From Nitrospira sp. CG24C (lineage in GTDB: Bacteria > Nitrospirota > Nitrospiria > Nitrospirales > Nitrospiraceae), in contig NEWR02000007.1 in assembly GCA_002869885.2 (NCBI GenBank), positions 96,753 to 160,752 of the forward strand: a DNA stretch of 64,000 nucleotides. Reading direction: 5' to 3'. How positions within the stretch are numbered: position 1 is the first letter of the stretch; the number at the start of each line of letters is the position of its first letter. Under the pieces are notes generated by a model, which searched no databases, had not been told where the DNA came from, and saw nothing but the letters and a program-made list of their open reading frames with translations. Positions 10,919-59,458 of this stretch are shown here, piece after piece. The translations under genes and the position numbers were made by a program.

Positions 10919-11046
10919 GCAGGATGCTGAAAAAGTCCGTCAGCGGCGTTCTCGGTTCATCGAAATCCTCAACGTACCTCTGAGGGTACGCCTCCGGTTT
11001 CGATTCGCCTGCGGCCTTGCTGGACGGCCATTTTGAGCATCCTGGA
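10919..11046. repeat. 125-nt covarying palindrome, copy 1 (inverted orientation)
   Basis: Long imperfect hairpin whose ends are GGATGCTGAAAAAGTCC and its complement. The centre is a GTACC/GGGTAC stem flanked by conserved GGAGGCG and GAGGAT blocks. Compared with the copies at 34701, 44639 and 48246, internal stem sequences differ but stay complementary within each copy (here CGAAATCC pairs with GGTTTCG). It sits upstream of the ArsC-like gene and of the zinc-ribbon gene. Confidence 0.82.
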
Positions 11047-11193
11047 TTTATTCGGTCTCAGCACCGTATGGAAGATCCCAACGGTATTTGGTGTGTTAAT
11101 CGAGTTTTCCTGCGACCTACCCAGCGTCTCGCCTGCCTTGACGCCATTTTTATCCCTGTGATACATCAGCCCTATCATGCTTACATCAACGCC

Positions 11194-11580
11194 ATGATGC
11201 CGACGCCAATCTTTGGAACCAGCTCCAGCGGTCAGTTTTCCTGCGCGACAGCCACGCACCACACCTTACGAGACCTCCGCACCAAGCGCAAGGGACAGCC
11301 GGTGTTCGTCGTCGGGCATGTCTTGGCTAGGAAAGGCCAGGAAGGAAGCTTTGAAGTCTTTAACGATCGGCTGGCCATTGTCAAATTTTCCGACGGCGGC
11401 GCAATCGGCTATGATCCGCAGGAGTTGCTCTTACCTACCGAAATCGACGATAAGGGCACCGCATACTTTGAAATTCGCCCCTGCCGGCAGTGCGAGCAAC
11501 TCTTCCCTTTGACCGCTGAAGATTGTGAGTCGGCAGAAGAACCCTCCTCTTGTCCGGAATGCCGAAGTTCGAAGTTCTAG
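11194..11580 (+). CDS. Hypothetical zinc-ribbon protein with repeat-encoded C-terminus
   Basis: About 128 residues and not recognised. A central beta-rich segment (GQPVFVVGHVLARKGQ, RLAIVKFSDGGAIGYDP) is followed by two cysteine pairs, CRQC and CPEC, that probably bind zinc. The last residues (RSSKF) and the TAG stop are encoded by the heptamer array that begins near 11564, so the original C-terminus may have been replaced. The start is uncertain: ATG at 11194 or 11197. The open frame extends back to 11017 through the 125-nt palindrome but is not convincing there. No function is proposed. Confidence 0.55.
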   Translation: MMPTPIFGTSSSGQFSCATATHHTLRDLRTKRKGQPVFVVGHVLARKGQEGSFEVFNDRLAIVKFSDGGAIGYDPQELLLPTEIDDKGTAYFEIRPCRQCEQLFPLTAEDCESAEEPSSCPECRSSKF

Positions 11581-11632
11581 GTTCGAAGTTCCAGAAACCT
11601 CGAACTTCGGACCTCGAACCGTCGTCCGTCTC
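11564..11632. repeat. Heptamer palindrome (GAAGTTC type), locus 1
   Basis: 7-nt units GAAGTTC, GAAGTTC, TAGGTTC, GAAGTTC, then after CAG the complement: AAACCTC, GAACTTC, GGACCTC, GAACCGT. The left arm overlaps the end of the zinc-ribbon gene. Highly similar to 31840-31905; a shorter relative is at 13433. Confidence 0.8.
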
Positions 11633-11645
11633 GCTCGCTATCCTG

Positions 11646-13432: not shown

Positions 13433-13487
13433 GTTGGAGGTCCGAAGTTCGAGGTTTTTAGAACTTCAACCGTGAATATCGAACCAC
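13433..13487. repeat. Degraded heptamer palindrome (GAAGTTC type), locus 2
   Basis: Short pair of arms (GGAGGTCCGAAGTTCGAGG, then GAACTTCAACC) with 7-nt spacing partly lost. It lies between citrate synthase and hsp20 and is followed by a CGCGTCTCGCGC stretch resembling the GCGAGACGG nonamer family. Confidence 0.55.
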
Positions 13488-30459: not shown

Positions 30460-31800
30460 TTGTTCAAGAAAGTATTGATAGCCAATCGCGGTGAGATTGC
30501 GCTCCGCGTGATTCGTGCCTGTAAGGAGCTCGGCATTAAGACCGTGGCAATCTTTTCTGAGGCCGATGCGGCAAGCCTCCATGTCCGCGCAGCCGACGAG
30601 AAGATCTGTGTCGGGCCTTCTGACGCAGCGCTGAGCTACAGAAATATTCCCAACGTCCTGAGCGCCGCCGAGATCACCGGGGCGGATGCCATCCATCCCG
30701 GCTACGGGTTCCTCTCCGAGAACGCCCATTTTGCAGAAGTGTGCGAGTCCATCGGCGTCAAATTCATCGGCCCAACGTCCGAACACATCGCCCTCCTGGG
30801 CGACAAGGCCAAAGCGCGTGAAATCGTTGCCCGCCGTGGCTTACCCGTTACACCAGGCAGCCCCGGCGAACTGAAGAGCGAACAGGGAGCCCTCGAAGCC
30901 GCCGGCAAGGTCGGCTATCCCGTCATCATCAAAGCCTCAGCCGGTGGGGGAGGGCGCGGCATGCGCGTCGTCAATAAAGCCGAGGATCTCGCTCGCGCGT
31001 TTCAAGCCGCTCAGGCCGAAGCAAAGACCACCTTCGGGAACGATGCCGTCTACCTCGAACGATATTTTCTCGAGCCTCGCCATATTGAAGTGCAAATTGT
31101 CGCCGACCATCGTGGGCATGTCGTACATCTCGGCGAGCGCGACTGCTCGATCCAACGCCGGCATCAGAAACTGCTTGAGGAAACCCCGTCGCCTGCCGTC
31201 GACGAGAAACTCAGACGGGAAATCTGCCGAGTTGCGGTCGAAGCCGTCAAAGCCGTGCACTACAGGAATGTCGGTACCGTCGAGTTCCTGCTCGACAAGG
31301 ACCACAATTTTTTCTTCATGGAGGTGAACACTCGCATCCAAGTAGAGCATGCGATCACCGAAATGGTGACCGGCTTCGATCTCATCAAGGAGCAGATCAG
31401 GCTCGCCGACGGTCAGTCTCTCTCGTTCAAGCAGCAAGACGTCAAGCTTATTGGGCACAGCCTCGAATGCCGCATCAATGCCGAAGATCCTGAAAAGTTC
31501 ACGCCTTCTCCAGGAATGATCACCAAATACAGCGCACCAGGCGGATTCGGCGTGCGCGTCGACTCGGCTATGGAATCGAATATGATGGTCGTCCCCTTCT
31601 ATGATTCGATGATCGCCAAGGTCATCACCCACGGGCGAGACCGTCAAGAATCCATCGCCCGCATGCGGCGTGCCCTCGACGAATTCGTGATCGAAGGCAT
31701 CAAGACCACCATTCCGCTCCACAAGCGCATCATCAATGACCCCGACTTCCAAAAGGGTCACGTTTCCACGACATTTATCGAGCGCTTCCTTGCCAGCTAA
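30460..31800 (+). CDS. accC: Biotin carboxylase subunit of acetyl-CoA carboxylase
   Basis: 446 residues. ATP-dependent carboxylation of biotin on AccB. ATP-grasp enzyme with KKVLIANRGEIALRVIRAC, HPGYGFLSENAHFAE, a glycine-rich loop IKASAGGGGRGMRVV, EVQIVADHRGHVVHLGERDC and MEVNTRIQVEHAITE. The start is a TTG at 30460 aligned with the family N-terminus. The last base of its stop touches the start of a composite repeat. A closely related pyruvate carboxylase subunit A is possible, but pairing with accB favours ACC. Confidence 0.94.
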   Translation: MFKKVLIANRGEIALRVIRACKELGIKTVAIFSEADAASLHVRAADEKICVGPSDAALSYRNIPNVLSAAEITGADAIHPGYGFLSENAHFAEVCESIGVKFIGPTSEHIALLGDKAKAREIVARRGLPVTPGSPGELKSEQGALEAAGKVGYPVIIKASAGGGGRGMRVVNKAEDLARAFQAAQAEAKTTFGNDAVYLERYFLEPRHIEVQIVADHRGHVVHLGERDCSIQRRHQKLLEETPSPAVDEKLRREICRVAVEAVKAVHYRNVGTVEFLLDKDHNFFFMEVNTRIQVEHAITEMVTGFDLIKEQIRLADGQSLSFKQQDVKLIGHSLECRINAEDPEKFTPSPGMITKYSAPGGFGVRVDSAMESNMMVVPFYDSMIAKVITHGRDRQESIARMRRALDEFVIEGIKTTIPLHKRIINDPDFQKGHVSTTFIERFLAS

Positions 31801-31955
31801 CTCAGGCGAGACGGGCGAGAGAAGCGAGACAGGCGCGACCCGAAGTTCGAAGTTCCGGGTTCGAAGTTCCGGGAACCTCGAACTTCGGACCTCGAACCAT
31901 CGTCCGTATCACACGTCACGCGAGTCGCGCCCCTCGCGTTTGTCACGCGCTCCCC
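31801..31955. repeat. Nested palindrome: heptamer hairpin inside a nonamer (GCGAGACGG) hairpin
   Basis: The outer left arm (31804-31838) has 9-nt units GCGAGACGG, GCGAGAGAA, GCGAGACAG and GCGCGACCC. The inner element (31840-31905) is a full GAAGTTC heptamer palindrome nearly identical to 11564-11632. The outer right arm (31915-31953) has the complementary nonamers (CGCGAGTCG, CGTTTGTCA). Two repeat families are thus stacked concentrically right after accC. Confidence 0.8.
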
Positions 31956-32967: not shown

Positions 32968-32969
32968 CC

Positions 32970-33097
32970 ACGCGAGACGGGCGGGACAAGCGGGATGAAC
33001 GAGATGGGTTGATTTGGTTCATCTCGTCTATCTGGTCGGTGCTGTTGCTCGACCCAGAGAAACCAAACAAACCAAACAAACGAGATACACCAAATAA
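32970..33097. repeat. Composite nonamer palindrome (GCGAGACGG and ACCAGACAG types)
   Basis: Starts with GCGAGACGG, GCGGGACAA, GCGGGATGA and ACGAGATGG, then passes in the same 9-nt phase into GTTGATTTG and GTTCATCTC type units. The right arm (33050-33097) has AAACAAACC-type units and ends with CGAGATACA. It shows that the two 9-nt families grade into one another. Confidence 0.75.
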
Positions 33098-33105
33098 CGA
33101 TCTCC

Positions 33106-33747
33106 ATGAATGCCGTGGGTTCTCACCCCCTCTCAAGCCTCTATATCATTCTCGATCCGTTGGTCTGCCCTGCGCGTCCCTTGGTCGAGGTGCTGACGGT
33201 GGCGGCTGAGGCCGGCGTTTTTCTCTTCCAATATCGCAACAAGGCAGGATCGATGAAGGACGCCTACGTGGAAGCGTTGGCGCTCCGGCAAGCTGCTGCT
33301 CAAGCAGGTGTACTTTTCATCGTCAACGATCGCTGTGACTTGGCCCTGGCCGTAGATGCCGATGGCGTGCATCTGGGGCAGGGAGACTTGCCGCTCGACT
33401 TGGCGAGAAAGGTAATGGGCCCTGACAAACTCATCGGGATTTCCACGCACAGTCCTGACCAGGTGCGGAAGGCCACCGCAGGAAAGCCTGACTACCTTGG
33501 CTTTGGTCCTATTTTTACACCAGGCTCAAAACAAGACCATGATCCGGTGGTTGGGCTTGAAGGGTTACGTGCGATCACCGGACTCACGTCGTTGCCGGTT
33601 TTTGCGATCGGTGGCATTCAGATCGACCAGGTGGGGGCGGTGATGCTCGCCGGTGCCAAAGGCGTTGCGGTCATTTCAGCGATTCTGAAGGCCCCGGATA
33701 TCAGCCGCGCCGTGAAAGCTTTCCTGCACAGATGTGAGCCCGCATGA
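33106..33747 (+). CDS. thiE: Thiamine phosphate synthase
   Basis: 213 residues. Joins the thiazole and pyrimidine phosphates of thiamine. TIM barrel with YIILDPLVCP, VFLFQYRNKAGSMKD, FIVNDRCDLALAVDADGVHLGQGD, IGISTHSPDQV, YLGFGPIFTPGSKQDHDP and VFAIGGIQIDQV. The start lies nine bases after the composite nonamer array. No other thi gene is in the window. Confidence 0.92.
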   Translation: MNAVGSHPLSSLYIILDPLVCPARPLVEVLTVAAEAGVFLFQYRNKAGSMKDAYVEALALRQAAAQAGVLFIVNDRCDLALAVDADGVHLGQGDLPLDLARKVMGPDKLIGISTHSPDQVRKATAGKPDYLGFGPIFTPGSKQDHDPVVGLEGLRAITGLTSLPVFAIGGIQIDQVGAVMLAGAKGVAVISAILKAPDISRAVKAFLHRCEPA

Positions 33748-33784
33748 TTCATGAAGCTTCTGCTGCAAGCGCGGATACCTTACT

Positions 33785-33878
33785 CAAGCGAGACGGACGA
33801 GACTGGCGGGAAAAGCGCGACAGGTAACAGGGCTCACACGTCACGCAAGTCCCGCTCTTCGCGCTTGTCGCGCGCCAC
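33785..33878. repeat. Nonamer palindrome (GCGAGACGG type) overlapping the bioD 3' end
   Basis: The left arm holds GCGAGACGG, ACGAGACTG, GCGGGAAAA and GCGCGACAG. The right arm (33840-33878) is the complement and also encodes the last residues of bioD on the minus strand. Confidence 0.8.
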
Positions 33879-34664
33879 TCCACCATTTCTCGACGAACCT
33901 TCATGAATAATGCGGGCTAGGACCAGACTCGCCAGCTTTGTGATCGGAGCGGTTCCCGCAAGACGGACCAGATCTTTATTCCACTCTTGATTCACACGTG
34001 GGCGATATAGGATGGGCCCCACCACAGGAACCTGTGAGAGCTGTCGAAGTAGGGTGACTGTCGATTGTTCCTGCAAACGAGCGGTTTTCGTACACACTGG
34101 ACGACGCTGATTCAAGACCAGGGCCAAGATGGGAATATTTCGCTGGCGGAGTGCGTGAAGCGTCAATAATGCATGATTGATTCCTCCTAAGCCAGAATGT
34201 CCGACCACGATCGCTGGCAATTTCAACTGGTAGATGAGGTCTACGACGTTGAGCGATGAGGTCAGCGGCGCATAGACACCACCGACTCCTTCTACCGCCA
34301 TGAATGTATGTTTCTGACGCAGGGCATGGAAGGCCCGTATAATGGTGGCGATACGCACGGTCGTTCCTTCCGCTCGTGCAGCAGAGAGCGGCGCCGCTGG
34401 AAGTCGAAAGACATAGGGACAGACTTCCGCCACCGGATCATGGTTTCCAGCCGCCCTACGCAACCGTGCTCCATCAGACCGCGCCTTAGCCGATGGTGAA
34501 ACCCCTGTTTCAATCGGCTTCATGACACCGACATCGATTCCCCGTTGAATCAGGCACCGCACGAGCGCAGAGGTCACAAGCGATTTCCCCACGCCTGTAT
34601 CGGTTCCTGTAATAAAAACCCCTCGCGAGCTGGAATCGGTAGCTAGTTGTTTGGCTCGTTGCAT
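33834..34664 (-). CDS. bioD: Dethiobiotin synthetase
   Basis: 276 residues. ATP-dependent ring closure in biotin synthesis. P-loop GVFITGTDTGVGKSLVTSAL, then VGVMKPIETGV, the MAVEGVGGVYAPL metal/ATP loop and AIVVGHSGLGGINHALLT. The last 15 or so residues (ARDKREERDLRDV) have a three-residue periodicity and are encoded by the GCGAGACGG nonamer array, which also supplies the stop; bioD proteins normally end before this. Downstream of an SDR gene on the same strand, with a 125-nt palindrome between. Confidence 0.9.
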   Translation of the reverse strand: MQRAKQLATDSSSRGVFITGTDTGVGKSLVTSALVRCLIQRGIDVGVMKPIETGVSPSAKARSDGARLRRAAGNHDPVAEVCPYVFRLPAAPLSAARAEGTTVRIATIIRAFHALRQKHTFMAVEGVGGVYAPLTSSLNVVDLIYQLKLPAIVVGHSGLGGINHALLTLHALRQRNIPILALVLNQRRPVCTKTARLQEQSTVTLLRQLSQVPVVGPILYRPRVNQEWNKDLVRLAGTAPITKLASLVLARIIHEGSSRNGGVARDKREERDLRDV

Positions 34665-34700
34665 AATTAATTTCTGGTGGAAACTGGAACGCTGCTCCCC

Positions 34701-34828
34701 GCAGGATGATCCAAAAGGCCGCCAGCAAGGCCGCAGCCGAAGAAAGCACCGGAGGCGTACCCTCTGGGGTACGTTGAGGATGCTTTCGAGGTGAGAACGA
34801 AGCTGGCGGGTTTTTGGGACATCCTGCT
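34701..34828. repeat. 125-nt covarying palindrome, copy 2
   Basis: Lies between the SDR gene and bioD. Conserved blocks CAAGGCCGCAG, ACCGGAGGCGTA and ACGTTGAGGAT. The inner stem GAAAGCA pairs with TGCTTTC, and the apical stem GTACCC with GGGTAC. The right end touches the SDR stop codon. Confidence 0.85.
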
Positions 34829-35561
34829 AAAGATTTCGGCTGTCACAGTTCCACACCTGCCCCGATACACCGTTAAGTTGCGCCAGATAGAAGACAGTCT
34901 TGGCCACTTCCTCTCGCGAGGGTGGCTGGCCTAACACATGGTCGTTCCAAGTATCGCCTTCCGGCATGGCCCCTTCCGATAGTCCAGTAGCCTGCCAGCC
35001 TGGTAAGAGGAGATTCACACGAACATTGCCCGCTCCCCATTCTTTGGCTGCGGTCTGTACCAGACCGATAAGACCGGCTTTTGAGGCAGCGTAGGCAGCC
35101 TGGCCAATCGTCCCATGGAACCCCGCATACGACCCGATCACGACAATGGATCCACCACCGTGAGCGAGGAGGGGCGGGGCCATAGCGCGAAGACAGCGAA
35201 ATGTTCCAGTCAGATTCGTGTCTATGACCTCGGCCCAATCTTCTTGGCGTTGTCGAAGCAGGAGATGGCTCCCTCCGATTCCGGCATTGCAGACAAACAC
35301 AGACGGCACAGGTACTAGCCGACAGAAGGCTTCCACCATCTGTTGCACCTCATGAGACTCGCGAATATCGGCTTCGTAGAGCGTCCCAGTTCCACCGGAA
35401 GCCACTACTTGCTTGAGCGTGCCTTCGGCTGCTGTCTTGTTTCGGTGATAATGGACCCCAACAGACCAGCCGTCCGTTGCAAAGGCGAGGCTGATCGCTC
35501 GGCCAATCCCTCCTGACGCACCGGTCACAAGCACCGCTTGTTTCTGGTTGATTTGGTTCAT
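34827..35561 (-). CDS. Short-chain dehydrogenase/reductase (FabG-like)
   Basis: 244 residues. NAD(P)-dependent oxidoreductase: cofactor loop LVTGASGGIGRAISLAF, CNAGIGG, catalytic Ser in IVVIGSYAGF and the YAASKAG pair. FabG-like members reduce 3-oxoacyl-ACP; the position just upstream of bioD suggests a role in the pimeloyl chain of biotin synthesis (inference). The N-terminus MNQINQKQ is encoded by the right end of a nonamer array, which supplies the only in-frame ATG before the cofactor motif. The stop lies at the edge of a 125-nt palindrome. Confidence 0.85.
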   Translation of the reverse strand: MNQINQKQAVLVTGASGGIGRAISLAFATDGWSVGVHYHRNKTAAEGTLKQVVASGGTGTLYEADIRESHEVQQMVEAFCRLVPVPSVFVCNAGIGGSHLLLRQRQEDWAEVIDTNLTGTFRCLRAMAPPLLAHGGGSIVVIGSYAGFHGTIGQAAYAASKAGLIGLVQTAAKEWGAGNVRVNLLLPGWQATGLSEGAMPEGDTWNDHVLGQPPSREEVAKTVFYLAQLNGVSGQVWNCDSRNL

Positions 35562-40516: not shown

Positions 40517-40655
40517 CATTGAAGAGATACAGGGGTAGAGGGGTACCGGGGTAGAGGGATAAGAGGCTACCCCGACTATCCCTGTATCCCGCTACCCCTG
40601 TATTCGTGCTTTGCACAATCATAAATCGCCTTCAGCCCATCTACCTGAACCCCTT
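40517..40655. repeat. Octamer palindrome with terminal motif, copy C (inverted)
   Basis: Left arm of 8-nt units GGGTAGAG, GGGTACCG and GGGTAGAG; right arm GACTATCC, CTGTATCC, CGCTACCC. Ends with the inverse terminal motif CGCCTTCAGCCCATCTACCT. It is the same element as at 5130 and 10359 in the opposite orientation. Confidence 0.8.
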
Positions 40656-41642: not shown

Positions 41643-41735
41643 CAGGCGAGATGGTTTCTCTTGTTTATTTGGTCTATTTTGTTTGTTTGGTTGAATTAGA
41701 CTAACCAGATGAACTCGTCCCGCCGTCTCGCGAAG
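41643..41735. repeat. Nonamer palindrome, locus 7 (both unit types)
   Basis: An inner GGTTTCTCT/GGTCTATTT type arm is followed by a short right arm (ACTAACCAGATGAAC), all enclosed by GGCGAGATGG on the left and CCGCCGTCTCGCG on the right. Located between the Mrp gene and pdhA. Confidence 0.65.
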
Positions 41736-59308: not shown

Positions 59309-59402
59309 ATCCGTGAAAAGTGAAACGTAAAACGAGAAATGTTTCGGAAGAATACTGCTCGGCAATCCAACATCTCACCTTTTACGTTTTACCTTTCACG
59401 CT
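59309..59402. repeat. Heptamer palindrome (GTGAAAC type)
   Basis: Left arm GTGAAAA, GTGAAAC, GTAAAAC, GAGAAAT (59312-59340); right arm ATCTCAC, CTTTTAC, GTTTTAC, CTTTCAC (59370-59400). It lies in the leader of the guanidinase-like gene. The remaining 59068-59308 part of this divergent intergenic space shows only a weak TTTTCAGTT/AACTGAAAA inverted repeat near 59196-59229. Confidence 0.8.
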
Positions 59403-59458
59403 TTTTGAGAGCGATTTTTTTCAGCCCCCTGCAAAAGCGGGTGTAAGGAGGTGGCGGT

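Follow-up and report, generated by a model that had tools for sequence, protein, structure and literature searches.

A nested repeat after accC in Nitrospira is most likely a member of a genus-specific family of miniature palindromic mobile-type elements with exchangeable centres

The window analysed here is a stretch of 64,000 nucleotides from Nitrospira sp. CG24C (G000), in which the open reading frame at 30460-31800 is identified by Pfam as the biotin carboxylase gene accC. Directly 3' of its stop codon starts a composite repeat, in which a heptamer palindrome (H7) is flanked by inverted arrays of the 9-nt unit GCGNGANNN (N9), together spanning 31806-31953. A first-pass annotation had described two repeat families nested concentrically after accC, and both the arrangement and its coordinates are right; so is its statement that the heptamer palindrome is nearly identical to a copy at 11564 (92% identity over 71 nt). 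The element belongs to what we call frame B, one of several types of N9 arms, and has the following parts.

31801-31805, forward strand: remnant of the frame-B end, CTCAG; in the alignment with other frame-B copies the consensus GACTCAA precedes the first N9 unit
31806-31841, forward strand: left outer arm, four N9 units GCGAGACGG GCGAGAGAA GCGAGACAG GCGCGACCC
31842-31897, forward strand: H7 core, a 56-nt heptamer palindrome of sequence GAAGTTCGAAGTTCCGGGTTCGAAGTTCCGGGAACCTCGAACTTCGGACCTCGAAC
31898-31953, reverse strand: outer arm on the right, made of inversely oriented N9 units

By the frame-B alignment, the first residues of the right arm (CATCGTCCG) are part of the H7 module, and frame B resumes from ATCACACGTCACGC on.

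The H7 arms (31840-31859/31869-31888) are 90% complementary, while the complementarity of the outer arms is loose, at 75% over 28 nt. None of 200 dinucleotide shuffles folds as well as the whole stretch (z -3.35), with most of the folding strength supplied by the inner palindrome, which when taken alone is equalled by 4 of 1000 shuffles. The first-pass annotation had made its reading depend on outer arms that are complementary above chance, and here the result is divided: the outer-arm duplex, at -37.6 kcal/mol versus -33.1 +/- 3.9 in composition-matched shuffles, is matched by 128 of 1000 of these, but it is equalled by only 5 of 2000 stretches of the window with identical geometry. The N9 unit is partly invariant, and the arms match chiefly at its fixed positions; in this copy the outer "palindrome" consists for the most part of two arrays of this one unit, inverted to each other. 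Because the arms of a single copy are only loosely complementary, it is the family-wide register described below that secures the outer palindrome at accC. The arms of one copy paired no better with each other than with arms of different copies (at least as good in 4882 of 5000 permutations), on which ground we reject co-maintained hairpin arms; selection for a precise hairpin is thus not shown. That the element might be a functional RNA hairpin or the terminator of accC is suggested by its position directly after the stop codon and its ability to fold, but is extremely improbable: the 64-kb window holds no Rfam match at gathering score, the sequence after accC has no terminator-like site (no stem with a T-run), and almost all relatives lack the element at accC or have something else there. 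We reject a known RNA family and an intrinsic terminator alike.

The composite is dispersed. Searching its own genome with a 175-nt stretch yielded 101 first-look candidates; of these, 40 were scored and all match, many of them across arms and core. These and other genome-wide counts are candidates from searches and no census. The register between arms and core is fixed: on the left side, perfect GCGNGA units begin 9, 18, 27, 36 and 45 nt from H7, and on the right side 15, 24, 33, 42 and 51 nt from it. This pattern comes from 35 full-length cores in G000 and a further 73 at other loci. N9 stands on at least one side of H7 in 33/35 own copies and 72/73 others, and on both sides in 23/35 and 51/73 (66-70%), versus about 1% at random positions. 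These loci were picked by the H7 pattern, and the frequency of N9 without H7 is not readable from them. The earlier annotation had named as decisive whether the two arrays arose everywhere as one block; for the accC locus this is largely how it looks, with N9 in fixed register to H7, and at the level of the family the cores are exchangeable, as set out below.

Across the genus, sampled with one genome per species and with many incomplete MAGs, H7 has matches in 32 of 32 genomes (1 to 80 first-look candidates each), and a 132-nt composite query matches 30 of the 32; the same query found nothing in 29 genomes that belong to other genera within the family and order. Within the GTDB collection, the matches of an exact H7-core 22-mer are nearly all Nitrospira MAGs. 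It also occurs in two MAGs labelled Acidobacteria and Bacillota (L301 and L322), probably on contaminating Nitrospira contigs. H7 copy number is very uneven among related species, with 79 first-look candidates in G000 and 3 in G025, a difference suggestive of bursts or losses. The accC repeat most likely belongs to a family of miniature palindromic mobile-type elements that is specific to the genus and has exchangeable centres.

For comparing single sites, the nearest relatives of G000 are G013 (95.2% nucleotide identity over 2,226 aligned nt), G017 (91.3%) and G025 (87.5%). The tree is ((((G000,G013),G017),G025),G020), with support of 97-100 at the nodes that carry a value; support is low (43-75) at several deeper nodes, but polarity was read from nodes with 97-100, and G015 and G023 pair with a support of 87. 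Three further elements of the window bear on the centre as a module. Two of them contain a second core, T9, a nonamer palindrome of TTTGGTTTGT nonamers, which occurs by itself, within other inverted repeats and also within N9 frames.

32969-33108, forward strand: N9 arm with a T9 core; the whole element is absent from G013 and G017
33735-33921, forward strand: frame B without H7, inside a further outer inverted repeat CCCGCATGATTCATGA/TCATGAATAATGCGGG; wholly absent from G013 and G017
41643-41735, forward strand: N9 ends around a T9 core; orthologous, fuller frame-A copies occur in G023 and G006

The element at 33735-33921, 1.9 kb from that of accC, has the outer frame of that element, with the same residues at the turn, and a short turn TAACAGGG in place of H7. 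Aligned at the turn, it reads ...GCGCGACAGG / TAACAGGG / CTCACACGTCACGC... where the accC copy reads ...GCGCGACCC / GAAGTTC...ATCGTCCGT / ATCACACGTCACGC...; H7 fills exactly the turn of frame B. One frame thus exists both with and without the core, and one core is found in several frames: by arm type, 39 H7 copies are in frame A (one reversed), 20 in frame B (12 forward, 8 reversed) and 15 in frame C, with 34 left unassigned. The centres of the family are the H7 heptamer palindrome, the T9 nonamer palindrome or a short turn. The weak second nesting that had been reported at 41643-41735 is real and has N9 ends, but its inner part is T9, not the heptamer.

Frame B sometimes sits within a further inverted repeat, as at 33735, whose outer layer has the inverted ends TAGCCCGCATTATTCATGA; the empty sites in G013 and G017 give no clear target duplication for it. 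Elements of about 120-260 bp with the inverted ends TAGCCCGCATTATTCATGA...TCATGAATAATGCGGGCTA and varied nested contents are present in many copies in G000 (33735-33921; L061, L134-L160). Another inverted-repeat element, GCAGGATGCTGAAAAAG...CTTTTTGAGCATCCTGC, has several centres including T9 (about 34690-34830; L064, L072, L077, L196, L205). The loci examined yielded no convincing autonomous partner for either of these two outer inverted repeats. The window also holds periodic palindromes of different sequence at 483-589, 40528-40603 and 59312-59404, with units of 6, 8 and 7 nt.

The first-pass annotation had offered two origins for the nesting, a heptamer element that moved into the turn of the nonamer element, or hairpin turns as hot spots where new arrays arise. 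The second, with new tandem arrays born by slippage, could appeal to the palindromic arrays with periods of 6 to 9 that are common in the window; it is very hard to credit, since the cores are recurrent dispersed families common to all species of the genus and not arrays private to one site. This recurrence contradicts de novo array birth at hairpin turns for both H7 and T9, and we reject it. The first is supported at the level of the family, by frame B without H7 at 33735-33921, by the three frames and by the core differences at orthologous sites (below), but largely not at the accC locus itself.

The accC site carries no element in G025, a small, unrelated palindrome in G013 and a short remnant of N9 alone in G017. 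One might suppose that an N9 palindrome was resident here first and that H7 alone inserted into its turn, given that frame B exists without H7 and that G017 has only N9 remnants, with identical outer ends. We judge this unlikely. Nearly all H7 copies already come with N9 in fixed register, and the empty outer palindrome that the earlier annotation proposed to look for in relatives is in neither G013 nor G025. The G017 junction, moreover, falls on GCGAG, which stands at both breakpoints in G000, and its inner N9 units are missing asymmetrically, as in a deletion; judged by its sequence, the G017 remnant looks like a deletion derivative of the full element more than an ancestral empty frame. If it is one, the composite arrived at accC whole before the split of G000 and G017, and most likely it did so rather than being built in place. 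Other nested palindromes of the window insert as units, because 32969-33108 and 33735-33921 are absent as entire blocks from G013 and G017; a clean empty site was seen directly for these insertions of N9 with T9 and of frame B with its outer repeat, and for none of N9 with H7.

Two further H7 copies in the window lie at sites where the centre differs between species.

11564-11634, forward strand: second copy of H7, which has lost its left N9 arm; the open reading frame 11017-11580 has its stop codon within H7
13434-13485, reverse strand: degraded third copy of H7, following the citrate synthase gene, at a site that has H7 in some species and T9 in others

At the latter site, with states here and elsewhere assigned by pattern and by eye and with G013 excluded from the state table owing to its rearranged flank, the core is H7 in G000, G017, G023 and G031 and T9 in G014, G015, G019, G020, G024 and G025; the site is empty in at least six species. 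Both states share the outermost arm on the right side, together with the point where it joins the flank: these are identical between G014 with T9 and G023 with H7, and six other species have similar ones, so that orthologous arms are kept while the core differs. The tree requires at least three switches between H7 and T9. Because G025 and G020 serve as outgroups, the direction in the G000/G017 lineage is likely from T9 to H7. Elsewhere, at C2:153506, a T9 element is common to G013 and G025 where G000 has H7 with N9. At C22:539253 a core-less N9 palindrome is present in G006, G014, G015 and G023, N9 with H7 in G000, and another palindrome in G013, G020 and G025. The states at site 11564 are H7, T9, N9 only, other elements or nothing. 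The junction of H7 with the gene is identical there in G000, G013, G003 and G011. The final residues of the reading frame 11017-11580 are encoded by the element, and this junction recurs in the other three.

These differences could also be explained without any exchange of cores, if composites of frame A with H7, of frame A with T9, and of N9 alone had inserted independently in a few permissive gaps and older ones had been deleted. Composites with either core are themselves dispersed blocks, and the same gaps are reused in other species by unrelated palindromic elements (P type, hexamer type); part of the core turnover may consist of such coincident independent insertions. As a full account we give this a minority share of our confidence, because the common arm and junction at 13434, identical in G014 and G023 with their different cores, would need independent insertions to strike one and the same nucleotide.

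We therefore favor exchangeable cores, and consider it probable that the accC repeat belongs to a genus-specific family of miniature non-coding mobile-type elements that are modular and concentric, with N9 arms in at least three frames (A, B and C) and recurrent cores that are combined and exchanged between copies and between species. The finished composite would have reached accC as one piece, and the element may spread as a non-autonomous unit on which a transposase acts in trans. Core exchange might take one of two routes: a core could insert into a palindrome already in place, at its turn, or a second dispersed copy could act as the template for repair or conversion, the common N9 arms providing homology. 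Neither a mobilising enzyme nor defined ends nor a target duplication were established from the Y1 genes of the 32 genomes, the empty sites and the loci examined. A more far-reaching reading, which we put forward tentatively and think rather doubtful, is that these are a bacterial class of concentric, modular palindromes whose arms stay while the centre is actively exchanged in situ, either through insertion targeted to the turn or through cleavage of the hairpin followed by repair from a second copy; the 9-nt arms would then be a docking frame for cores across the genus.

Among known systems, REPINs are REP doublets that form hairpins and are tied to RAYTs (PMC3116915), and the Nitrospira elements are like them in being bacterial, miniature, intergenic, palindromic and in many copies. 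Size, palindromic form and intergenic dispersal, together with Y1 transposase genes in 19 of the 32 genomes, would fit REPIN-type elements moved by a RAYT transposase. We nonetheless regard this as quite improbable, and reject RAYT mobilisation, since RAYT presence does not follow copy number (none was found in the high-copy G013, G017 and G023, whose assemblies are incomplete); also the arms are 9-nt arrays and the centres exchangeable families. Bacterial MITEs are likewise small, non-coding, dispersed and absent from the same site in close relatives, and the outermost layer at 33735, with its inverted ends, resembles them; frames A, B and C differ in having no clear short terminal inverted repeats, and among the loci and empty sites examined neither a parent element nor a target duplication was found. 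Cyanobacterial heptanucleotide short tandem repeats (STRR) also place heptamer units between genes, but these are direct-repeat arrays of other sequence, whereas H7 in Nitrospira is a palindromic core inside N9 arms.

Foldback transposons have a variable centre. The Nitrospira family shares with them inverted arms of short tandem repeats and a centre that differs among copies with the same arms. Foldback or Galileo-like elements with arms containing short-unit tandem repeats (PMC3688188) are eukaryotic and much larger (Galileo arms are 0.5-1.2 kb), some with known transposases, whereas the Nitrospira elements are about 100-190 bp, bacterial and linked to no enzyme. Volvox organelle DNA contains short dispersed palindromic elements inserted within one another (PMC2670323), and yeast mitochondrial GC clusters such as GC42 merge and are shuffled, and the same homologous site can hold a stand-alone or a merged form (PMC4478555). 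In the parts of those two sources used here, the likeness is that the palindromes are short, dispersed, and nested or merged; the same parts describe organelle DNA with unrelated sequences, and report neither tandem 9-nt arms nor fixed-register combinations of frame and core.

We found no description of these Nitrospira repeats in the open-access literature. The family resembles the Volvox and yeast, foldback and REPIN systems each in part and fits none fully. Bacterial miniature palindromic elements are usually treated as fixed units; here copies with common outer arms differ in their core or lack one, and the core differs even between close species at one site. The genus is a natural system for testing how miniature palindromes grow, nest and exchange parts, processes so far described mainly for organelle DNA.
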